DNA of 62,962 nucleotides, taken from NCBI GenBank assembly GCA_947591495.1, contig CANQDG010000008.1:1-62962 (forward strand), read 5' to 3'. The notes under the pieces are model-generated. The model was given only the letters and a program-made list of their open reading frames with translations. It was not told where the DNA came from and did not search any database. Position numbers and translations under genes: made by a program. The DNA is from an uncultured Bacilli bacterium (GTDB lineage Bacteria; Bacillota_I; Bacilli_A; ML615J-28; CAG-313). Positions 6,968 through 52,364 of the stretch are shown here, piece by piece. Numbering within the stretch: position 1 is the first letter of the stretch; each line of letters begins with the position of its first letter.

Positions 6968-8206
6968 TTATTTTTCATTAAAAGCAATATATTCCATATT
7001 TATTAGTCTTATTAATTCCATAAAATTCATATTTTCTACATCTTCATATGAACCATTATCAAATCCAACTGATAAAACATAAGTAAAATTATCAAAAGAA
7101 TAAATTACTTCTTTACCACATCTGATATTTTCTTCAATATTACTAGCCTTTACTAATAAGCATATTTGTTGAAATCCCTTATCAACAATTCGAGTATTAC
7201 CATCCGGATGAGCTTTTTGCAAATGCTGACTTGGGGTTAAAGCAATTAAATTTTCTACATATCCACTAATTTCTTCAAACTCGTTTTCTGGAAATATGTG
7301 ATGCATATTGATTGCATGCCCGATTGCCAACTCATCTTTTATTTCAGACATTCCATTATTAAATGTATCGTTGAATGCTCTTAATAATTTTTTAGCCTTT
7401 GCAGATTGATATCTCATTAAATTAGTATTAGGTTTATCTTGCAAATAATAATAATATTCTGCTCTAGTCATTTCCTTTGGCTTATTGACATAAATATCTC
7501 TAAAATTATTTCTATTATACATTAGCATATCTTTGGTTATTTTATTTTTAGACATTCTACCTTTTTCAGTACCATATGTATTTTTCATAAAAGCCAAAGG
7601 ATTTAAAACTTTTGTAAAAATTCTATTACACTCTGTTTTCCCATTAATTGGTGTATTAAAAACTGTAAATCTTCCAAACTCATATTTCATTTTTTCATAT
7701 GTATTATTTGTTGGATTATTGAAAAAATTTTCAAAATATTCATATATACCACTATCTTTTAATACTTTTGTATTATATAATTCTATAAATTTCAATGCAT
7801 TCATTTCTCTTATAGATATAAATTCTAAAAGTTCCTTATTCCACATTTTATAGTAATTTCTATTTCCATCTTTTTTCTTCTGCAAAACACCAGCATTTGC
7901 AAGCATTTCCATAGGTTGTTGAAAAAATTTATCATATTCATTTCTAGCTTTTTGTTCATCTGGGTTAGGTTTTTTAAAAATTGATTCAACATTTTGTACA
8001 GTATAATTATTATGCCAAATGTCAAGTGAACTAAAAAATTCTTGTTGTGGATTAGAATTAGTAAACTCTAAAATACAATCTGCAATTATACATAAAACAT
8101 CAGGAGTACATTTTTGATCAATCCATCTAGCATTATGATTTTCCCTGATATCATAATTATAGTGTGTCATAAAATTTATAATCTGTTCTTCTGTTAACCA
8201 ATTCAT
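6968..8206 (-). CDS. HNH-type restriction endonuclease
   Basis: A 412-residue protein placed one base after the stop of the double methyltransferase gene, so it is almost certainly the paired endonuclease. Near residues 300-335 there is an HNH-like core: a paired histidine (MHHIFPENEFEE), then an asparagine (VENLIALTPSQH), then HPDGNTR. The N-terminal 290 residues have no motif I recognise and should hold target recognition and dimer contacts. The cleaved site cannot be read from the sequence. The gene uses more A/T-ending codons than the housekeeping genes around it, consistent with horizontal transfer. Confidence 0.8.
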   Translation of the reverse strand: MNWLTEEQIINFMTHYNYDIRENHNARWIDQKCTPDVLCIIADCILEFTNSNPQQEFFSSLDIWHNNYTVQNVESIFKKPNPDEQKARNEYDKFFQQPMEMLANAGVLQKKKDGNRNYYKMWNKELLEFISIREMNALKFIELYNTKVLKDSGIYEYFENFFNNPTNNTYEKMKYEFGRFTVFNTPINGKTECNRIFTKVLNPLAFMKNTYGTEKGRMSKNKITKDMLMYNRNNFRDIYVNKPKEMTRAEYYYYLQDKPNTNLMRYQSAKAKKLLRAFNDTFNNGMSEIKDELAIGHAINMHHIFPENEFEEISGYVENLIALTPSQHLQKAHPDGNTRIVDKGFQQICLLVKASNIEENIRCGKEVIYSFDNFTYVLSVGFDNGSYEDVENMNFMELIRLINMEYIAFNEK

Positions 8207-8207
8207 A

Positions 8208-10721
8208 TTAAGACTCCTTCAATTTTCCAAAAAAGAATACGGATGTTTTATCAATGTTCAAAGATCTAGTTTGATAATTTCTTGCTATTTTATAGAAATT
8301 TCTATATTCATTAGTTGAGTAAAATAGCATATCATTTTGAGTTAATCTAATACTATTTTTAGGTATTAATATTGCTACAGAACCATTTACTATTGTTCCG
8401 TTAGGTTTTCTACAAACTCTTGGTTTATATGACATATTAGGAGTGATATACACATTGCTATCATTCAAAAATTCATAAACATTATAATTTTTTATATCGT
8501 TTTCATCAACATATTGATCATAATTTTTTATATGTTTTATTTCAGTAGCATCGTCATTTATATTTCGTGATTTGATAACCCATATTTCTTTTTTACTTTT
8601 TGAACTATTATTATTAGTAATTTGTCTATCTCTAAATACATCAAATAAGTCAAAATCCATTTTACTAAATAAATTATCAAATTCACTATTACGATATATA
8701 ATCCAATATGGCAATTTTTTATCAATAATATATTTTTGCTTTTGATTTATTTCTTGTTTAAGTGTTATGGATAATACTTTAGTGTTATCTATTTTGTTAC
8801 AAGTATTAACATTTATACATATGGTTTCAATTAATACTCCTTCAAAACCTTTTTCACCAAAATCGATTATAGATTTTATATTTAAATGAGAAAGATAATC
8901 TCTTGTCATTGAATATTCGCTTGTATTTAACAAAAATTTAGGCATAACCATAACAACATTATCTGCTATCATTAAGGATTTTTCTAAAAAATATGAGGCT
9001 GTATTATTTGATTCATTATTGATACAATTTTCTCTATATTTATTAAGCAATTTATTACTAGAATGCATTTTCATAAATGGTGGGTTGCCAGTTATAACAT
9101 CATACCTATTTTCAAAATTATGCAAAAGATAATCATCGCATATATAATTTATGGTTATATTTTCAGGTATATCAATTATTTTTAATAATTCTTTTAACAC
9201 ACTTAATGAATAATTATTTATGTCAACAACATCAATTATCAATTCTTCGGCATAACTATATTTTGCAATTATATATGGTATAAAATTACCTACTCCAACT
9301 GATGGTTCAAGCACTCTAATTCGTTTTTTATTAATATTAGGTAATTCTTTATAAATATAATTCAATAATTTTTTATTTGTATAAAATGCCTCTTCGTTAT
9401 TCCTTTCAGCATTTGATAATTCTGCAATTTTGGATAAAGTAGTAACAGATAATATTTCCTTATTTGATTTTATAAAATAATTTAGATTCCCATTATTCAA
9501 TAAATCATTATCTTTAATTAATTTATTAATTTCTTTTAATGAATAATTTTTTCTATTTAAATTGTCTTTTATATTGATTGCAATTTGATGAAATATTTCA
9601 GTAGGTACTGCTTCACCAATAGATTGACGAATATTGATTTCTTCTTTTTTCAAAAAGTTTCTTTTTTCTTCAAAAGTCAATTTATTTAATTCTTTTTCAT
9701 CTAATTCAACCCATTTAAAAGATTTTGGAATGGTCATTATATTCATTAATTCTCTAATACTAAAGACTCTATCGTCAGATGGGTGAATAGTATTTTGACT
9801 AGCCAGTTGATCATTTCTTGTATGAATACAAGGAGCGACCTTATCCCAATATTGTCTTTTGTATTTATCACCAGTTTTATTTATATTTATTTTAATTTTA
9901 CCATCTACAATAGTATGTGGTTTTTTATTATCATCTTTTTGATCAAAAGCAGATTCTCCCTCTTTTAAATCGTGAATCCAAAAGCGCATATGTTTGGGAT
10001 ATATTCTAAAAAAATGATAAATATCATCACTACTTATTTCACCAAATTCGGTTAATGGCTTTAATTTCCCAATAACCTGCCTTAAAGTTTTTTCTTTTCT
10101 TTTTTTTGGAAACAAATCTATCGGAGAAATGTAATCTTCTAAATCTAGCCTAACACCTATCACAAGTGTTCTAGTTCTGCTTGAATTTGAACCATAATCT
10201 TTGAAATTAATTACTCGATTCATTATTACATAATCATTATCTAAATTATTATTTATCGCTAATTCAATTGATTTAATTTCATTGTCCATATCAATACAAG
10301 CTGTTTTTAAAAACGCCGATACATTTTCAAATATAAAAATTTTAGGTCTAATTTTTTTAATAATTTTAATAGATTCTATAACAAGCGAATTTCTATTAAT
10401 TTCATTATTCTTTTTTAAATTAGCTACTGACATACCTTGACAAGGTGGTGTTGCAATTACAACATCTATATTATCAATATTTTCTTTTTTACTCCAAAAC
10501 TTTATTTCATTAAATAATTTATTTTTTGTATCATCTAAAGTTATATCTCCACATATATAGCCAGATTCATATTTACATTTATGATTGACTCTTTGAATAT
10601 TTAGTCTTCTTTCTATAAGTTCATTAGTAGCAACACATTCAAAATTTTCCATTTTAAAGCCATAGCACCCAATACCTGCACTACTAAACAAACTAATATA
10701 AGTATACTTTTTACTTTTCAT
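8208..10721 (-). CDS. Fused C5-cytosine and N6-adenine DNA methyltransferase
   Basis: An 837-residue fusion of two modification enzymes. Residues 1-390 are a complete C5-cytosine methyltransferase in standard motif order: FSSAGIGCYGF (AdoMet site), PPCQG with catalytic Cys94, FENV near 131, SSRTRTLVIGVR, and GEAVP near 370. Residues 430-837 are a gamma-class N6-adenine methyltransferase: VLEPSVGVGNF near 474 and NPPF near 547. Both active sites look intact. Separate C5 and N6 activities for one endonuclease usually mean an asymmetric target with one modified base per strand; that is inference. RBS GGAGGT precedes the ATG, and the endonuclease gene follows. Confidence 0.92.
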   Translation of the reverse strand: MKSKKYTYISLFSSAGIGCYGFKMENFECVATNELIERRLNIQRVNHKCKYESGYICGDITLDDTKNKLFNEIKFWSKKENIDNIDVVIATPPCQGMSVANLKKNNEINRNSLVIESIKIIKKIRPKIFIFENVSAFLKTACIDMDNEIKSIELAINNNLDNDYVIMNRVINFKDYGSNSSRTRTLVIGVRLDLEDYISPIDLFPKKRKEKTLRQVIGKLKPLTEFGEISSDDIYHFFRIYPKHMRFWIHDLKEGESAFDQKDDNKKPHTIVDGKIKININKTGDKYKRQYWDKVAPCIHTRNDQLASQNTIHPSDDRVFSIRELMNIMTIPKSFKWVELDEKELNKLTFEEKRNFLKKEEINIRQSIGEAVPTEIFHQIAINIKDNLNRKNYSLKEINKLIKDNDLLNNGNLNYFIKSNKEILSVTTLSKIAELSNAERNNEEAFYTNKKLLNYIYKELPNINKKRIRVLEPSVGVGNFIPYIIAKYSYAEELIIDVVDINNYSLSVLKELLKIIDIPENITINYICDDYLLHNFENRYDVITGNPPFMKMHSSNKLLNKYRENCINNESNNTASYFLEKSLMIADNVVMVMPKFLLNTSEYSMTRDYLSHLNIKSIIDFGEKGFEGVLIETICINVNTCNKIDNTKVLSITLKQEINQKQKYIIDKKLPYWIIYRNSEFDNLFSKMDFDLFDVFRDRQITNNNSSKSKKEIWVIKSRNINDDATEIKHIKNYDQYVDENDIKNYNVYEFLNDSNVYITPNMSYKPRVCRKPNGTIVNGSVAILIPKNSIRLTQNDMLFYSTNEYRNFYKIARNYQTRSLNIDKTSVFFFGKLKES

Positions 10722-19892: not shown

Positions 19893-19893
<1 letters not shown>

Positions 19894-20105
19894 TATTCAA
19901 CCTCAATAACGAACTTTTTTCCATTAATTTCAACCAAATCACCCGGAAAAAGCTTTTTTCCACGTTGTTTTTCCTCGTTTTGATTAACTTTTATGCTCGA
20001 ATTTTCAATAAAATCTTTTACTTCGCCACCCATTGAAACTTCCCCAATAAACTTTAGGAATTGCCCTAATTTTATTGAATTTGTGGTAATTTTTACAACA
20101 GTCAT
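19893..20105 (-). CDS. yaaA: S4-domain RNA-binding protein YaaA
   Basis: A 70-residue S4-domain protein usually found between dnaN and recF in Bacilli. The S4 motif runs through IKLGQFLKFIGEVSMGGEVK, followed by GDLVEINGKKFVI. In Bacillus it is linked to ribosome assembly (also called RlbA). Here it has been separated from dnaN by 2.5 kb containing the RHH-ParA pair. It has its own promoter at 20129-20157. Confidence 0.93.
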
Positions 20106-20128
20106 AAAGCACCTCTTTTAATATCTTA

Positions 20129-20157
20129 ATTATACCATATTTTTTATCTTTTTTCAA
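20129..20157 (-). promoter_or_regulatory. Promoter of yaaA-recF-gyrB-gyrA
   Basis: TTGAAA (20157-20152), a 17-base spacer and TATAAT (20134-20129) with an extended TGG just before it. Confidence 0.85.
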
Positions 20158-20251
20158 TAATTTTGACCACTAATTTTTAACTTTTTTAAAACCTAAAAAA
20201 AATCACTTTTTAAGCCTCTTTTTTTAACCTTTTTTAATGTTTATTGTTTTT

Positions 20252-20275
20252 CGATTTTTTCCTATTAAAAAATCG
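20252..20275. repeat. Short perfect inverted repeat
   Basis: CGATTTTTT (20252-20260) and AAAAAATCG (20267-20275) around a 6-base loop. It might fold as a hairpin or act as a binding site; no function is assignable. Confidence 0.6.
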
Positions 20276-20358
20276 ACGTTTGCTAGTTTAAACCGCAAAA
20301 AACCCTAATTTTTATGTATTTATGTATATTCCTTATTTTATATATATAGTAAAAAATA

Positions 20359-20384
20359 AAAGTTTTAAATCGATTTAAAACTTT
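20359..20384. repeat. 26-bp perfect palindrome
   Basis: Each 13-base half reads AAAGTTTTAAATC from its own strand, centred on CG. Its outer part matches the AAAAGTTTT repeat found further along the tract. It is a plausible binding site for a symmetric dimer. Confidence 0.8.
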
Positions 20385-20860
20385 AAAATCAAAAGGTTAA
20401 AATTTAATTTTTTTTATAAAAAACGTCGTTTTTTTTAATACTTTTAATTTATAAGTTTTATATAATTATTTATAAGAATATAAAAATATTTATTTTTGTA
20501 TTCTTATAAATAATACAATATTTATTTTTGTATTTAATTATTTAATTAATAATATAAATATATATTTATTTATTCTTTTATGTATTTTTGTATATTTATT
20601 TATGTATATATTGGTTTATTGTTATAAATATTTACTTTTATATGTTTATATTTAATTATTTATAAAATATATTTTTATTTTAAAACCATTAATAAAATAC
20701 ATAATTGTTTTTATATTTTTATATGTAAAACAATATTTACGGCTAACGATTTTTGTATTTTTTACTTTTAAAATAAATACAATTACTTTTATTTTAAAAT
20801 TTATTTAAGTATTTTTATATTAAAATAAATATTTAATTTCAAAAAATATTATTTTAATAT

Positions 20861-21040
20861 AAAAGTTTATAGATAAAAATAGTTTTAAGTTAAAATTTAA
20901 AAGTTTGTTTTTTTAAACAATTTTGCAATTTTTATTTTTAATTTAAAAGTTTTTATATGTTTTTTATTTTACTATCAAATTTAAAAGTTTTAAATTAAAT
21001 GTAAATTAGTAGTTATTTTTATTTTAAAAATTAAAAGTTT
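20861..21040 (+). repeat. Iteron-like array of AAAAGTTT
   Basis: AAAAGTTT occurs in the same orientation at 20861, 20899, 20945, 20983 and 21033, with spacings of 38, 46, 38 and 50 bases. Four copies are extended on the left by TT(T). Most of the few G residues in this stretch belong to these copies, so the repetition is not just low complexity. Confidence 0.55.
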
Positions 21041-21412
21041 TAGAGTAAAAACTTTTTAAAACGTGCTTTAATTTGGTTTGCTGTTTATCTATATGGTTTT
21101 ATTTATTTATGGTTTGTTACACAAGCTTTTTAGAATTCGAAAATGTGTCGAATTTTTCGTGTTTTTGACCTCTTCGAAAAAACGCCATTTTTTTGATTTT
21201 GACCCCCGGGGGACGAATAATTTTCAAACTTTTTTTGAAAAATTAATTTTTGCCTTGTTTTTTGGGCTCATTTTTCAATCTAACTTGTTTTTTGGAATTC
21301 ATTTTTTTAATTTTTTTGGTTTGAACTATTTTTGACTATTTTTTTAAAACCTGATTAAAAATGTATTTATGGTTATATTTAAATAGTTATGTAAATAAAT
21401 ATTGCAAATAAT

Positions 21413-21441
21413 TTGCGGGTTTTTTAAGGGTGTGGTATACT
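21413..21441 (+). promoter_or_regulatory. Promoter of the RHH-ParA operon
   Basis: TTGCGG (21413-21418), a 17-base spacer and an extended TGG-TATACT -10 (21433-21441). The start would be near 21448, about 20 bases before the first ATG. Confidence 0.8.
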
Positions 21442-21467
21442 ATTGTTGTAAGTTAGGAGGTAACGAA

Positions 21468-21830
21468 ATGAATAATCAACCAATTAAAAGAAGAAATCCT
21501 TTTGACACGATAAAAGTAGTCGAAGAGGAAGAAAAACAAGAAGTTGTTAATGAGGAAGTAGAAAATTTTCAAGAAACACCAGTTTATGAGGAACCTAAAC
21601 CGGTTGTTAGAACACAAATTCGTCAACAACCTGTTCAAAGACCTGTTAGAACTTCACAAAGACAACAATATTATCAACCAGATGATTTAAATAGAGAAAA
21701 GTATACTTCAACAATGGATGTAACACTAAGAAGACAAATAAAAATCGCTTGTGCAACACGTGGAATTATGTTTGCTAAATTTGTAGAGGATGCTTGTAGA
21801 GAAAAATTAGAGAGAGAAGGTGTTAGATAA
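21468..21830 (+). CDS. Ribbon-helix-helix DNA-binding protein, likely ParA partner
   Basis: A 120-residue protein. Residues 1-75 are disordered-looking, rich in Glu, Gln, Pro and Arg. The C-terminal 45 residues fit a ribbon-helix-helix fold: a short strand (STMDVTLRRQ), helix (IKIACATRGI) and helix (FAKFVEDACREKLERE). Disordered tail plus RHH domain is the build of ParG-type centromere-binding proteins, whose tails stimulate the ParA ATPase. ATG 21468 is chosen for the AGGAGG at 21455-21460. It overlaps parA by one base (TAATG). No ParB/Spo0J domain is present. Confidence 0.8.
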   Translation: MNNQPIKRRNPFDTIKVVEEEEKQEVVNEEVENFQETPVYEEPKPVVRTQIRQQPVQRPVRTSQRQQYYQPDDLNREKYTSTMDVTLRRQIKIACATRGIMFAKFVEDACREKLEREGVR

Positions 21831-22618
21831 TGCCAATTATTTCAGCATTCTGTAAAAAGGGTGGTGTAGGCAAGACTACATTCCTTGGTTATCTTGCACA
21901 TTATCATGCAACGCAAGGAAAAACAGTTTTAGTTATTAGCGCTGATGATCAAAATAGTATTTTTAAAATTTTCGGCGTTGACAATTTTGTTAATGATCGT
22001 GACGATGATTTTTTCGAACATTTACTTGTAGGTGAAAAACAGCCTCAAGACATCACTTTTGAAGCAAGAATAAATATGTATTTAATGAAAACCTTAAATA
22101 CAGACAGACTTTCTTTGAATTTGACGCTAAAAAGGTCTGAAGAAAAGCATTTAAGGCAAATTATTGAGAGTTTTAACCAATATTTTGACTATATTTTTAT
22201 TGATTTTCCGCCTTCAAGCAGCAGATTGAGCGAAATTTTACTTGACATCAGTCAATCAATTTTAATTGTTGTCGGCTTAGACACGCTTGGATTGCAAGGT
22301 TTTTCGAATACAATTCAATATTTTGTTGATACTGACATCGATTTGGCCAAAATTAAGTACGTTGTACCGGTCGGATACATCAAAGGAAGACGTGCTCCGA
22401 TAAAGTGTTTGAAAGACTTAAAAGATCAAGCAAAAATGCTCACTCCAAACGCTATAATTACCACTCCAGTTAAGGATAAAGCCGAAATCAAAAATATTCA
22501 AACTGAAGGTATTTCAATCTTTGATAATCAGCCAATGAAGGATAGATTTCATCAAAAGAACTTCGACGAGATAAAAAAAGACCTAATTTCTATCTTTAAA
22601 GAGATAAATTTAGACTAA
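21830..22618 (+). CDS. parA: ParA-family partition ATPase
   Basis: A 262-residue ATPase of the MinD/ParA group. The deviant Walker A, CKKGGVGKTTF, is at residues 8-18. Walker A'/B follows at IFIDFPPSS near residue 123. There is no N-terminal DNA-binding extension, which matches the small type Ib ParA proteins (ParF-like) and also Soj. The RHH gene directly upstream favours type Ib. Its likely job is moving the origin region or positioning it on the nucleoid; this is inference. Both genes oppose the fork moving left from dnaN-dnaA, unlike their neighbours. Confidence 0.92.
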   Translation: MPIISAFCKKGGVGKTTFLGYLAHYHATQGKTVLVISADDQNSIFKIFGVDNFVNDRDDDFFEHLLVGEKQPQDITFEARINMYLMKTLNTDRLSLNLTLKRSEEKHLRQIIESFNQYFDYIFIDFPPSSSRLSEILLDISQSILIVVGLDTLGLQGFSNTIQYFVDTDIDLAKIKYVVPVGYIKGRRAPIKCLKDLKDQAKMLTPNAIITTPVKDKAEIKNIQTEGISIFDNQPMKDRFHQKNFDEIKKDLISIFKEINLD

Positions 22619-22624
22619 AAAAGA

Positions 22625-22655
22625 CAAAAAAAGCACAAATTTGTGCTTTTTTTGT
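22625..22655. terminator. Bidirectional terminator between parA and dnaN
   Basis: AAAAAAGCACAAA and TTTGTGCTTTTTT form a perfect palindrome with T-runs on both sides, closing parA from the left and dnaN from the right. Confidence 0.9.
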
Positions 22656-22664
22656 TGGTTTTTT

Positions 22665-23786
22665 TTAATAAACTCTTACAGGAAGTAACAATTGAGTTAA
22701 ACTGTCGTTTTCTTTATCTTTTATTAAAGCAGGTTTGATTTCACCGGTAAAATTAAACATTATCGTTTCATTTTCAAAAGCTCTTAAAGCATCTAAAAGG
22801 TTCTTTGAACTGAAAGCTACTTGAAAATTAACTGCTTCTGTTTGATTAACTATAGAAATTTCTTCTACAACTTTACCGATTTCTGAAGAATTTGATGAAA
22901 TTTCAGCTTTGTTATCACCTGAAAAGACGAATTTTACAATGCTTAAATTCTCTAAATTACTAAATAATGAAGTTCGATCTACTGCATTTATTAGCTCGTT
23001 TCGGTTAAATTCAGCACTAAATAAAAATTCTTTCGGAATCAAGTGAGAAGTGTCTGGATAATTACCTTCAATTAATCTTGAAACAAAAACAATATTTTTG
23101 TATTCAAAAGTGACTTTGCTATTTTCTAAATACATCTTTATAAGGGTTGATTCATCGCCTAAAATCTTGCTAAATTCGTCCAAAGACTTGCTTGGAATAT
23201 TAGCCATAATTTCGGCCTCTTTTGCGATTTTAGAAATCTTCTTAGCAATTCTGAAACTATCGGTTGCCGTGACCTCTAAGAGCCCATTTTTGGCTTTAAA
23301 ATTTAATCCTGTTAAAACGATTCGAGTTTCTGAAGTTGCACATGCAAAACTTGTTTCTTTAACGATTTGTTTTAATTCTTTGCTATCGATTATGATTGGC
23401 TCTGAAGAAGCTACAAAATTAGTTTTTGGATAATCATCTTTTTCGTAAGCTACTAAAGTAAAGTCTGATTTATCAGAAATAATTTTTATTGAATTTTTTT
23501 CAAAGAGTGTAAAGTCAACATCTTTACCTTCAACCTTCTTTGCAATTTCACAAAAGTATTTACCAGGAACAACACAATCGCCGGCTTCGTATAATCGTAC
23601 CTTTTCGTTTCTTTCTAATTTAACTTGTACAGCAATTTCTTTATTTGTTGCAACAAAAGTAATATCATCATCAGTAACTACAATTTTAACACCTGTTAAA
23701 ATAGGCATTGGAGTTTTTTGCGATAAGCCTTTAGAAACGTGTTGAAGTGTTTCTAAAAGTAATTCACGATTTATTATAAATTTCAT
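22665..23786 (-). CDS. dnaN: DNA polymerase III sliding clamp
   Basis: A 373-residue beta clamp, the normal length for its three domains. Typical segments include GKYFCEIAKKV, the domain-2 stretch FACATSETRIVLTGLNF, and the C-terminal hydrophobic-pocket strand ending LLLPVRVY. GAGGTC precedes the ATG. The gene is 117 bases after dnaA. That gap carries the best oriC unwinding candidate in the window. Confidence 0.98.
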   Translation of the reverse strand: MKFIINRELLLETLQHVSKGLSQKTPMPILTGVKIVVTDDDITFVATNKEIAVQVKLERNEKVRLYEAGDCVVPGKYFCEIAKKVEGKDVDFTLFEKNSIKIISDKSDFTLVAYEKDDYPKTNFVASSEPIIIDSKELKQIVKETSFACATSETRIVLTGLNFKAKNGLLEVTATDSFRIAKKISKIAKEAEIMANIPSKSLDEFSKILGDESTLIKMYLENSKVTFEYKNIVFVSRLIEGNYPDTSHLIPKEFLFSAEFNRNELINAVDRTSLFSNLENLSIVKFVFSGDNKAEISSNSSEIGKVVEEISIVNQTEAVNFQVAFSSKNLLDALRAFENETIMFNFTGEIKPALIKDKENDSLTQLLLPVRVY

Positions 23787-23903
23787 ATTTTTGACCTCTT
23801 TGTTAATTATTTATTTTTTATTTATTTATTATTATTAGTAGTGTGGATAAGTGGATAACTTTTTAAAACTAAGCTTTTCTAGTCCTTATATTATAAAGAA
23901 AAA
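23787..23903. other. Likely oriC unwinding region between dnaA and dnaN
   Basis: On the minus strand two DnaA boxes lie head to tail, TTATCCACT (23858-23850) and TTATCCACA (23850-23842), sharing one base. They are followed by CTACTA and then ATAATAATA leading into a long A/T tract. Paired boxes next to CTA-type trinucleotides (DnaA-trios) and an AT-rich duplex match the basal unwinding system described for Bacillus subtilis. The dnaN promoter probably overlaps this region. Confidence 0.8.
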
Positions 23904-25343: not shown

Positions 25344-25428
25344 TTTTCCACACAGTTATCAACATTTTATCCACATAAAAAACGTCTAATATTTCAACAA
25401 ATTATCAACATGATTATCATGTGGATAA
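25344..25428. promoter_or_regulatory. DnaA-box cluster upstream of dnaA
   Basis: Five boxes are readable: TTTTCCACA (25344), TTATCAACA (25356), TTATCCACA (25367), TTATCAACA (25402) and a reversed TTATCCACA (25420-25428). Together with the pair between dnaA and dnaN this gives the two-part origin typical of Bacilli. Both dnaA and the divergent gene at 25506 could be controlled from here. Confidence 0.9.
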
Positions 25429-25485: not shown

Positions 25486-25505
25486 AAAAAATAATGAGGT
25501 GGATT

Positions 25506-26642
25506 ATGAATAATAAAGCATTACCAACAAAAATAAAAATAATTATAATTATTGCTTTCACAATCGTATTATTCGGTTTAATATTATTAATTTTTGGTAG
25601 AACCAAAGATAAAAGATTTGAAAGTTATAGCAGCACTCCTTATGATGAACACATAGGAGTAATACTTAGAGAAGTTGAAAAAAGACAATCAACTTTACAA
25701 ACAGGAAGTTCAAGTACTAAAACTGAAGGTGAACATGAGAAATCAGTTTATGATTTACAAATATTACTTGTTAGAAATCAAGAAAATGATGATATAGATA
25801 ATATTAGAATTTATGTTGCTGGAAAAAATAAAAACAATTATACTTATTTTGATTACTCATCTTATACCAAATCAATGACTGGTTCTACAATGCATAGTTT
25901 AACATCTGCTACTTCGTTTGCTTCAAAAGAATTTATAAATAGACATAGTCATGGTCCAAATGGTGAAGAAATAGATGAAAGCACGTTGTTAGATGAATCT
26001 CCAATTGAATTTTTTATTCTTGTAACATATACCACAAAAGAAACAGAACATTCTTTTGCTTATAGAACTTCAACATTAGATTTTAATTTAAATAAAAAAT
26101 TCAAAAAAGCTGAAAAAAGAGAAGTTAAAGGAAGTTACATTGATTATAAAGAAGATCCGATCAAAATAAGAATAACTAAAGATTTAGCAGAAAGTGAAAG
26201 TACAATTAAAGAAGTACAAAAAGATGAATTTTCAATTGAATGTGTATGGGATAGTAATAATTTAGATGCATTTAAATATTCAAGTGATGTTTTAGAAGGA
26301 TTTAATTTAAGGCAGCATGAAATTTCTAATCCAAAAGATAAAGAAGCTTGGGATGTTAATCCAGAAATTGTTGATATAAAATTAGAAATTTATGCTAAAA
26401 TAACTAATAAAGATGAAGATTTTTCTAATTATGTAAAAGTTTATTCTTTATATGGATTTTATTCAAGACATCGTAATTTATCTATTTATGATTTAGAAAT
26501 TGATGAATCATTAAATCTTGAAAGTTTTTATATTTATGCGGAATTAAAAATAGATAATGGTACAAATGGTAATAAAACTAAATTATTAAAAAAACCTTTT
26601 GAATATAATATGTTATATTATGTAACAGTAGATGAACTATAA
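25506..26642 (+). CDS. Membrane-anchored protein of unknown function
   Basis: A 378-residue protein with one N-terminal membrane segment (residues about 10-30, IKIIIIIAFTIVLFGLILL) after a short positive tail. The remaining 345 residues are hydrophilic, with many beta-like stretches, and should face outside. I recognise no domain. ATG 25506 is preferred over ATG 25494 because GAGGTGG then serves as ribosome site. It sits between the DnaA boxes and rpmH, which are normally adjacent, so it is an insertion in a very conserved junction. Confidence 0.8.
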   Translation: MNNKALPTKIKIIIIIAFTIVLFGLILLIFGRTKDKRFESYSSTPYDEHIGVILREVEKRQSTLQTGSSSTKTEGEHEKSVYDLQILLVRNQENDDIDNIRIYVAGKNKNNYTYFDYSSYTKSMTGSTMHSLTSATSFASKEFINRHSHGPNGEEIDESTLLDESPIEFFILVTYTTKETEHSFAYRTSTLDFNLNKKFKKAEKREVKGSYIDYKEDPIKIRITKDLAESESTIKEVQKDEFSIECVWDSNNLDAFKYSSDVLEGFNLRQHEISNPKDKEAWDVNPEIVDIKLEIYAKITNKDEDFSNYVKVYSLYGFYSRHRNLSIYDLEIDESLNLESFYIYAELKIDNGTNGNKTKLLKKPFEYNMLYYVTVDEL

Positions 26643-50508: not shown

Positions 50509-51618
50509 ATGTTAAAAAAGTTTGCTGTACAAAATTTTATGGGGTTTACTAATAAATTAGAATTAGATTTATCAAAAGTATATGATTATGACTTTAATCA
50601 AAATTATATTAAAAATAAGCTTGTTAATAAAGCTTTAATATATGGTAAAAATGGTGTTGGTAAATCTAATTTAGGTTTAGCTATTTTTGATATTACGACT
50701 CATTTAAAAGATGATAAGCCCCTTGATTTAATAGAAGGACTTGAAAATATATATATCAATGGTAACTTGCCTAAGGGTAGTAGTGTTTATTTTAAATATA
50801 CTTTCTTGTTTGATCAAGATGAAGTTGTTTATGAATATGAAAAATATAGCCCTGATACTTTTAAACAAGAAACACTTTTCATTAATGGGGAAAAACTTAT
50901 TTATTTTGATCATCTAAATCATCAGGATAATTTTGTATTACTAACTGAGTGTCAAAACTTAAATATTGATTTGTTAAAAAATAATATGTCCATTGTTAGA
51001 TATATCTATTATAATAGTAATTTAGATACTAAACATCTTATTTGTCAATTAATTGATTTTGTTAATCGAATGTTATTCTTTTCAACTTCATCAACAAGCA
51101 ACTATGATGGCTTAATTAATCAATCAAAGTTTTTAACAGAATCATTAACTAAAGTAGAAAACTTAGATAAGTTTAGTCAGTTCTTAAAAGAAAACGGATT
51201 AAACTTTGATTTATCAATTGAAGAAAATCCTTTAAATAATACCAAAATGATTGTCGCTAATTATAAATATAAAAAAGTACCACTTCATTTAATTACATCA
51301 GATGGCACCGATGCTTTAATTCTTTATTTTTGTTGGTCACTTAACTTTGATAATTTAAGTTTTCTATATCTAGATGAATTTGATTCACATTATCATTATG
51401 AAACATCAGAAAAAATCTTAAAATTAATTAATGAACAAAATAGTTTTCAAACCATTTTAACAACCCATAATACCACTTTAATGAAAAACTATCTAACAAG
51501 ACCAGATTGTTGTTTCATTTTAGAAAATGGTCAAATTAGAAGCCTTGCCTCATCAACAGAAAAAGAAATTAAAGAAGTTCATAATTTAGAGAAAATGTAT
51601 CGTAATGGAGCGTTTTAG
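50509..51618 (+). CDS. AAA/ABC-type ATPase of the OLD/AbiLi/RloA group, likely phage defence
   Basis: A 369-residue ATPase. Residues 1-25 resemble the start of SMC/RecF-like ATPases (LKKFAVQNFMGFTNKLELDL). Walker A is YGKNGVGKSNL at 45-55, Walker B is LSFLYLDEFDSHYHYE near 283, and the H-loop is LTTHNTTLMKN. This set is typical of ATPases paired with a Toprim nuclease in abortive-infection systems such as AbiL and PARIS. The partner gene follows with one base of overlap. Which named system it belongs to cannot be decided by eye. Confidence 0.85.
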   Translation: MLKKFAVQNFMGFTNKLELDLSKVYDYDFNQNYIKNKLVNKALIYGKNGVGKSNLGLAIFDITTHLKDDKPLDLIEGLENIYINGNLPKGSSVYFKYTFLFDQDEVVYEYEKYSPDTFKQETLFINGEKLIYFDHLNHQDNFVLLTECQNLNIDLLKNNMSIVRYIYYNSNLDTKHLICQLIDFVNRMLFFSTSSTSNYDGLINQSKFLTESLTKVENLDKFSQFLKENGLNFDLSIEENPLNNTKMIVANYKYKKVPLHLITSDGTDALILYFCWSLNFDNLSFLYLDEFDSHYHYETSEKILKLINEQNSFQTILTTHNTTLMKNYLTRPDCCFILENGQIRSLASSTEKEIKEVHNLEKMYRNGAF

Positions 51619-52364
51619 TGAAAAAGATATTATTAATTGTTGAAGGGGCTAAAACGGAAGTTGATTTGTTTAGTCGTTTAGGTGATATATATGGTGATTT
51701 AGGAGATAAGTTTAGTTTCTTTTCTTACAATACTAATATTTATCAATTATATCGTAATATTATTGCTTATGGTAAAGATTTTGTTGATACACAAGATGTT
51801 TTAAAAAAGATGTGTAAAACTAATTCAGAAAAAGAAATGCTTAATCAAAAATTTGCTTATATATATTTAATCTTTGATTATGATGCGCAAGATCCTAGTT
51901 ATGATAGTGACAAATTAAAAGAGTTAATTGACCTCTTTGATGAAGAAACCGAAAGAGGGCTTCTCTTTTTAAATTATCCAATGATGGAATCTTATTTAGA
52001 TCATCAAAATTATAATTTTAATAAATACAAGAAAAATGAGATTGCGCTTCAAAAACTAAATGGGAAATATTATAAAGCTTTAGTTAAAAAACGGGGCTTT
52101 AAAAAACCTTTAATAAAATATGATGAAATAGATTTTGAAAATTTAATGAAACTAAATCTCAAGAAAGCCTTTTGGCTTGTTAATTGTAATGATTTAACAT
52201 ATTATAATTATTTGAATAAATTAACCAATATACATATATTAGAAATTATTTTAGAAAAAGTTGTAACCGAAAATAAGATTCCCGTTTTAAATACTTCTGT
52301 TTATTTTTTGGTTAGTTATTATGGTAAAAAGTATTTTAACAAGCTGTTTAATATTTTAGAATAA
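51618..52364 (+). CDS. Toprim-like (AbiLii/RloB-type) nuclease subunit
   Basis: A 248-residue protein with GTG start overlapping the ATPase stop. The beginning ILLIVEGAKTEVDLF carries the Toprim-type glutamate (Glu9). YLIFDYDAQD near residue 84-92 has the DxD pair (Asp87, Asp89). A further acidic residue lies in MMESYLD (Glu124). This matches the AbiLii/RloB type of protein better than OLD nucleases, which are fused to their ATPase. The expected role is the effector that cuts nucleic acid once the ATPase senses infection. Confidence 0.75.
   Translation: MKKILLIVEGAKTEVDLFSRLGDIYGDLGDKFSFFSYNTNIYQLYRNIIAYGKDFVDTQDVLKKMCKTNSEKEMLNQKFAYIYLIFDYDAQDPSYDSDKLKELIDLFDEETERGLLFLNYPMMESYLDHQNYNFNKYKKNEIALQKLNGKYYKALVKKRGFKKPLIKYDEIDFENLMKLNLKKAFWLVNCNDLTYYNYLNKLTNIHILEIILEKVVTENKIPVLNTSVYFLVSYYGKKYFNKLFNILE

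Follow-up and report, generated by a model that had tools for sequence, protein, structure and literature searches.

A ParA and ribbon-helix-helix gene cassette with an array of 8-bp repeats beside dnaN, probably serving origin segregation in one order of Bacilli without detectable Spo0J

ParA ATPases that work with a ribbon-helix-helix (RHH) partner are known from plasmids, and the closest described arrangement is delta-omega-parS of plasmid pSM19035, for which the accessible part of one paper reports 7-bp WATCACW heptads in sets of 7–10, one repeat per omega dimer, a need for at least four contiguous repeats for full ParA activation, and sites that overlie the promoters of the partition genes (PMC9499535). 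According to the same part of that source, RHH ParB proteins contact ParA via the N-terminus and do not spread along the DNA, and the fit of an RHH partition complex to the diffusion-ratchet model is called unclear (PMC9499535). A chromosomal ParA with an RHH protein has been described in archaea, namely SegAB of the Sulfolobales, with sites upstream of the two genes (PMC12284271, PMC9178275, both in the parts available to us); SegB sites are 13-bp palindromes scattered over the chromosome (PMC12284271) and SegB wraps DNA into a superhelix (PMC9178275). For bacterial chromosomes, the accessible text of one review assigns all centromere-binding proteins to the helix-turn-helix (HTH; ParB) class (PMC5002424), and that of a 2020 review lists groups lacking par genes and mentions no chromosomal system of the RHH type (PMC7022226). 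Here we describe a ParA gene and an RHH protein gene lying between yaaA and dnaN on a 62,962-nucleotide contig (CANQDG010000008.1, assembly GCA_947591495.1; the window, referring to this whole stretch) from an uncultured member of the Bacilli order ML615J-28. Comparison across related genomes leads us to the view that this chromosomal, type Ib-like cassette, vertically inherited, has probably taken over origin segregation from Spo0J-parS in this one order.

The order consists of gut and sediment bacteria that seem to have lost the standard origin-marking protein and to carry instead a plasmid-style gene pair with a repeat array beside the origin. In the window, the RHH gene (positions 21,468–21,830, forward strand), read from an ATG behind AGGAGG as a protein of 120 amino acids (aa; a 142-aa form with a TTG start is less likely), is overlapped by 1 nucleotide by the ParA gene (21,830–22,618, forward strand; 262 aa). 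The convergent dnaN (22,665–23,786, reverse strand) follows downstream, and the upstream neighbour is yaaA (19,893–20,105, reverse strand; S4 domain), with its start codon at 20,105. Between yaaA and the RHH gene extends an AT-rich tract with no recognised gene (20,106–21,467; 1,362 bp, GC 16.5%), which is the candidate centromere. An earlier, sequence-only reading of this DNA had described a ParA and RHH pair inserted between yaaA and dnaN, and both genes and their coordinates were confirmed; the non-coding DNA it placed upstream is indeed a tract without a recognised gene, but of 1.36 kb rather than 1.25 kb.

ParA (profile A1) has one match in each of 38 of the 43 order genomes, among them all 24 of high quality (completeness at least 90%, contamination at most 5%), and dnaN lies downstream of it in 38 of 38 loci; dnaN and dnaA also lie downstream of all 12 ParA relatives from the named genome collection. 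The RHH gene stands directly upstream of ParA in 37 of the 38 loci, the corresponding stretch of the other (G006) reading N, and beyond it yaaA was recognised in 30 loci, two more having recF but no yaaA match and six running off the contig or reading N. The ParA tree (36 genomes) recovers both families of the order and has 19 of 33 splits in common with dnaN and 21 of 33 with dnaA, compared with 25 of 33 between dnaN and dnaA, so that the agreement of ParA with either of them is slightly weaker than that between the two. The Robinson-Foulds distance between the ParA and dnaN trees was 0.42, and 200 label permutations never gave a value below 0.94; ParA is also the slower-changing protein (mean identity 0.62, against 0.53 for DnaN and 0.52 for DnaA). 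Judged by gene order and tree comparison, the cassette is old, single-copy, vertically inherited and, at every locus of the order where it was detected, beside dnaN.

These results bear on a further suggestion of the sequence-only reading, that a plasmid or prophage partition locus had been captured. A recently captured locus with no host role would account for the pairing of ParA with an RHH protein, known from plasmids in the accessible part of PMC9499535, and for the related ParA that lies away from dnaN in two genomes of a different family (f10). Recent capture was nevertheless rejected and is, in our judgement, extremely improbable, because the locus is order-wide and syntenic, in single copy at one place, the trees agree, and close plasmid or phage relatives were not seen: plasmid and phage ParA proteins were 24–29% identical among the matches listed, and a two-peptide scan of viral contigs found no ParA relative. 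Its neighbours, moreover, are housekeeping genes.

The ParA protein carries a single AAA_31/ParA domain (Pfam AAA_31, 1.1e-23) and is of the short type, without an N-terminal HTH domain and with a deviant Walker A motif (CKKGGVGKTT; Walker A at residues 9–16); as in type Ib systems, a small RHH protein with a flexible N-terminus is encoded beside it. Its structure model (pLDDT 83, pTM 0.84) has as best fold matches Soj, McdA, other ParA proteins, delta of pSM19035 and MinD, and the modelled fold does not tell the subfamily. Delta (2OZE) is among both the sequence and the fold matches, with 19% identity in the fold alignment, and SegA (7DUT), among many others, is matched by fold and weakly by sequence. 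The TP228 ParA structures 4E07 and 5U1G match by fold, whereas ParF is absent from the PDB sequence matches (E up to 0.001); in TP228, parF precedes parG, whereas the RHH gene comes first in the cassette of the order.

For the RHH protein, consisting of an N-terminal KRRNPF motif, a variable linker and a C-terminal RHH domain, no Pfam match and no NCBIfam family over cut-off was found, but the profile of its family alignment (A2) matches 2KEL, an RHH protein of solved structure, at 1e-7; this was the only PDB match at E up to 10, with no SegB chain. In the AlphaFold monomer, helices at residues 85–98 and 102–117 follow a low-confidence N-terminal tail, with no strand modelled, and the profile match and model together uphold the earlier description of an RHH protein with a disordered tail. 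A fold search with this model returned nothing below E 4; ParG of TP228 (1P94) was the top but weak match (root-mean-square deviation 1.2, E 5.5), which is only a hint from a predicted structure. The sole conserved element of the tail is a motif of the form KR-x(1-2)-[NSD]-P-[FLM], present in 37 of 37 RHH proteins of the order.

A related motif accompanies the ParA found outside the order. A class sample of 394 genomes, each at least 90% complete (27 order members and 367 others), contained 28 with ParA, namely 26 of the 27 order members and 2 of the 367 others, both from family f10 (G162 and G192, among 88 genomes of that family), and in a phylum sample of 392 genomes it was found only in order members and these two; in both searches at most six first-look candidates were scored per genome. 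Family f10, in which the genomes of one genus measure 0.3–0.9 Mb, is, judging by such small genomes, probably that of the phytoplasmas and Acholeplasma. The two f10 genomes with this ParA also have ParB, and their ParA loci have no dnaN within 1.5 kb. The gene before ParA (L082, 2284–2655; L083, 2277–2618) encodes a 113–123-aa protein that has two copies of a KRxSPLE/KRxNPLE motif and lacks Pfam matches (E up to 0.01). That a common motif fronts otherwise different proteins suggests, from sequence comparison, that the KR motif is the part that touches ParA.

The tract between yaaA and the RHH gene could be delimited as a gap in 30 of the 38 loci, the other eight running off the contig, reading N or having no yaaA match; a script placed each RHH start at the closest ATG preceding the motif (for L095, at the start of the open reading frame, ORF), so that a few gap ends are approximate. 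The gaps measure 1.0–2.8 kb with a GC content of 11–31%. A hidden gene was considered and rejected, since none of the 30 gaps has an ORF longer than the longest in 20 shuffles (the longest in the window's tract being 85 aa with a TTG start) and only seven short matches (24–35 aa) link ORFs of different gaps. An expectation-maximisation motif model was also discarded, as it collapsed onto plain A/T runs, and was replaced by k-mer enrichment, lag counts and a chain score, calculated on 27 gaps after the near-duplicates L005, L093 and L099 had been dropped (per-gap hexamer counts use all 30).

By these measures, TACATAAATA is enriched in 23 of the 27 gaps, with 123 occurrences overall compared with 2.9 in order-2 shuffles. 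TACATA and TATGTA occupy one 8-bp register in both orientations: among 443 hexamer pairs 8–48 bp apart, 81% lie at multiples of 8 (15% expected), with no other step from 5 to 15 accounting for more than 18%. Around the anchored hexamer (314 sites in family 2), the neighbours again read TAYRTA with two W between, giving TAYRTAWW octads, and up to 53 hexamers stand in one gap. A chain model built on the hexamers of the 20 family-2 gaps, and extended in 8-bp steps, beat all of 100 shuffles in each of those 20 gaps, which were its training set, and in all seven gaps of family 1, to which the window belongs and which were not in training; the best chain of the locus fell within the gap in 27 of 27 loci. 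Searched across the 43 whole genomes, an exact triple octad was found at 71 places in 20 genomes, of which 46 are within 3 kb upstream of ParA, 4 on the dnaN side and 21 elsewhere, 18 of the latter being (TA)n-like or (TATG)n repeats. One (TATG)n microsatellite away from the cassette was recorded at G028:C115, 1157–1238.

In the window, the four highest chains in 8-bp steps all lie in the tract. The best (20,459–20,608; 24.4 bits, 19 steps of 8 bp) is followed by a second at 20,593–20,662 (20.6 bits), and the octad chain sum of the tract was 132 bits against 6, with none of 100 shuffles as high. At 21,360–21,401, ahead of the RHH gene, two further chains (11.7 and 11.8 bits) form a candidate self-regulating operator; a similar site pair precedes the RHH gene in locus L003, and in several family-2 gaps the best chain stops within some 20–50 bp of the RHH start. 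The sequence comparisons show that a locus-specific array of 8-bp TAYRTAWW units accompanies the cassette of the order in the tract between yaaA and the RHH gene. Since the RHH partition protein omega has contiguous 7-bp repeats as its binding sites, the array is, by analogy, likely the centromere. Use of an 8-bp repeat by an RHH protein is known for MetJ.

The resemblance to pSM19035 extends to the RHH protein, the proposed N-terminal contact with ParA, the contiguous short repeats and the candidate sites over the partition promoters, as far as the accessible part of the source describes them (PMC9499535); the difference is that the units here are chromosomal octads within 1.0–2.8 kb, linked to oriC and to the absence of ParB. 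Unlike the scattered sites of SegB, the array is of another kind, mostly local and beside a bacterial origin. With Soj-Spo0J-parS the cassette would share its presumed task and has in common a position near oriC, but it has an RHH protein in place of the HTH protein ParB, and it occurs with Soj without Spo0J and, in the window's genome, without parS.

The earlier observation that the window contains no ParB/Spo0J gene was confirmed, and the search was extended to the whole genome, where neither ParB/Spo0J nor the 16-bp parS was found (no site with up to two mismatches). Across the order, ParB (TIGR00180) was over cut-off in none of the 43 genomes with all candidates scored, compared with 253 of 367 other Bacilli (at most eight candidates scored per genome), so that Bacilli outside the order without ParB exist too. 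Sub-threshold TIGR00180 matches in the order number 13 in nine genomes and cover model positions 4–101 or 102–149, none covering both. An overlooked Spo0J was rejected on the strength of this search and of a ParB_N search of the window's genome, in which the single ParB_N protein (G000:C3; 179 aa) adjoins a PAPS-reductase/DUF3440 gene. Of a normal Soj-Spo0J-parS system elsewhere, only Soj is seen: a homologue is present in 39 of the 43 genomes, lying in the window's genome behind mnmG-rsmG (L034; G000:C4, 5702–9038), where the expected spo0J place is taken by a SpoIIE-like gene whose product is below the NCBIfam cut-off. In G010 a similar-sized gene follows Soj, and in the two genomes read nothing Spo0J-like stands next to Soj. 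SMC (TIGR02168, E 1e-20) was found in none of the 43 genomes, compared with 11 of 14 controls, including B. subtilis, in a search that used one profile, scored at most 12 candidates per genome and did not extend to ScpA or ScpB.

With the cassette adjacent to dnaN in every ParA-bearing genome of the order and no Spo0J found, the proposal of the sequence-only reading that a type Ib system may have replaced ParABS is the one favoured here. The fuller claim, that the whole order segregates oriC without ParB, parS or SMC by means of a new RHH protein and a new centromere in 8-bp register beside oriC, is one towards which we lean by a small measure. Several observations weigh against the favoured reading of a type Ib-like replacement. 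Five of the 43 genomes have no ParA match, and while four are incomplete (G007, 70%; G012, 71%; G014, 65%; G026, 82%), G013 is 95% complete (6% contaminated); other Bacilli are also without ParB while having no such cassette; and the SMC negative comes from the single, bounded search just described. In the window's own tract, a step of 12 gives 28.4 bits, more than the 24.4 bits of step 8 (step 10, 20.7 bits); of steps 6 to 12, step 8 scores highest in each of the remaining six family-1 gaps. The window's tract has seven TACATA/TATGTA hexamers, where 200 shuffles averaged 1.5 and themselves reached a maximum of seven, and the sister species G002 has three, with 1.9 expected. The window's genome (G000) has no exact triple octad, a pattern that proved too strict as a detector in its family, and the backward control pattern was found at 27 places against 71, 16 of the 27 being in G028, which also has 16 repeat matches off the locus. 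As shuffles remove simple repeats, slippage of repeats could explain some of the array signal.

A rival reading would make the array only a low-complexity AT tract, for example an unwinding part of oriC, and the RHH protein a simple self-repressor, as the low GC content of the gaps, the higher score of step 12 in the window and the phasing of TATATA (79% of 98 pairs, near the 81% of TACATA) might suggest. We regard this as very unlikely: the register is tied to TACATA, the median phasing over 35 common hexamers being 24%, with TATATA the one close rival; it is common to both orientations, unlike the product of simple slippage; the motif transfers between two families; and whole-genome triples are mostly at this locus.

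If the cassette does segregate the origin, RHH dimers would occupy neighbouring octads, just as omega dimers occupy adjoining 7-bp heptads, and the flexible N-terminus with its KR motif would reach out and stimulate ParA-ATP dimers that bind the nucleoid without sequence specificity; the array would then trail the receding ParA and sister origins would be drawn apart, while octads before the RHH gene would provide self-regulation. Both the binding by the RHH protein and its role in segregation are inferred here from the analogy with known RHH systems. The orphan Soj probably keeps another job, e.g. control of DnaA. A different assignment of tasks, in which the ParA-RHH pair is a replication-control module acting on DnaA or on dnaA-dnaN expression without moving the origin, would suit the fixed position of the cassette between oriC, dnaN and yaaA, and in B. 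subtilis, according to the available portion of PMC7022226, an influence on DnaA and replication initiation is exerted through Soj. It is unlikely, however, in view of the up to 53 hexamers per gap, which exceed the needs of a promoter or operator, the retention of Soj for that task in 39 of 43 genomes, and the convergent orientation of the cassette relative to dnaN and dnaA, outside their operon.

To our knowledge, the parts of the proposed segregation system are of a known kind, whereas its place, its centromere and the absence of ParB, and apparently of SMC, are new; no earlier report of a bacterial chromosomal ParA-RHH origin system was found in the literature searched by title and start of abstract, a set that excludes preprints and most subscription papers. 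If the proposal is true, the order would be an exception to the HTH-only rule for chromosomal centromere-binding proteins and would provide the first RHH-type centromere of a bacterial chromosome, as a natural replacement of the ParB-SMC axis, and the diffusion-ratchet question for non-spreading RHH complexes would become testable at chromosome scale. At least one member of the order has sporulation genes, the window's genome encoding GerQ (over cut-off) and a SpoVT C-terminal domain.

The surroundings of the cassette in the window include a two-way intrinsic terminator between ParA and dnaN (22,623–22,656) and two groups of DnaA boxes: two boxes in the dnaA-dnaN spacer (23,842–23,858, reverse strand), as part of the oriC region, and five (at most one mismatch) upstream of dnaA (25,344–25,428), which are the main oriC candidate. 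The distance of 1.2 kb from oriC given by the sequence-only reading holds from the end of ParA to the two-box group, but the five-box group is 2.7 kb away. Two further perfect DnaA boxes lie within gyrB (18,555 and 18,588), and the cumulative GC skew of the window has minima at about 21 kb (−834) and 25 kb (−829). Between dnaA and rnpA (25,494–26,642) lies a gene for a 382-aa protein with no family over cut-off; of the loci searched, only those of the genus and of G009 have it in this position. Elsewhere in the window, an AAA ATPase gene paired with a weakly RloB-like gene (50,509–52,364) was recognised by PADLOC as the candidate defence system PDC-M12 (2.6e-111 and 4.4e-47), and at 6,968–10,721 a Type II restriction enzyme (PADLOC) accompanies an 837-aa double methyltransferase with C5-cytosine and Eco57I-like domains.

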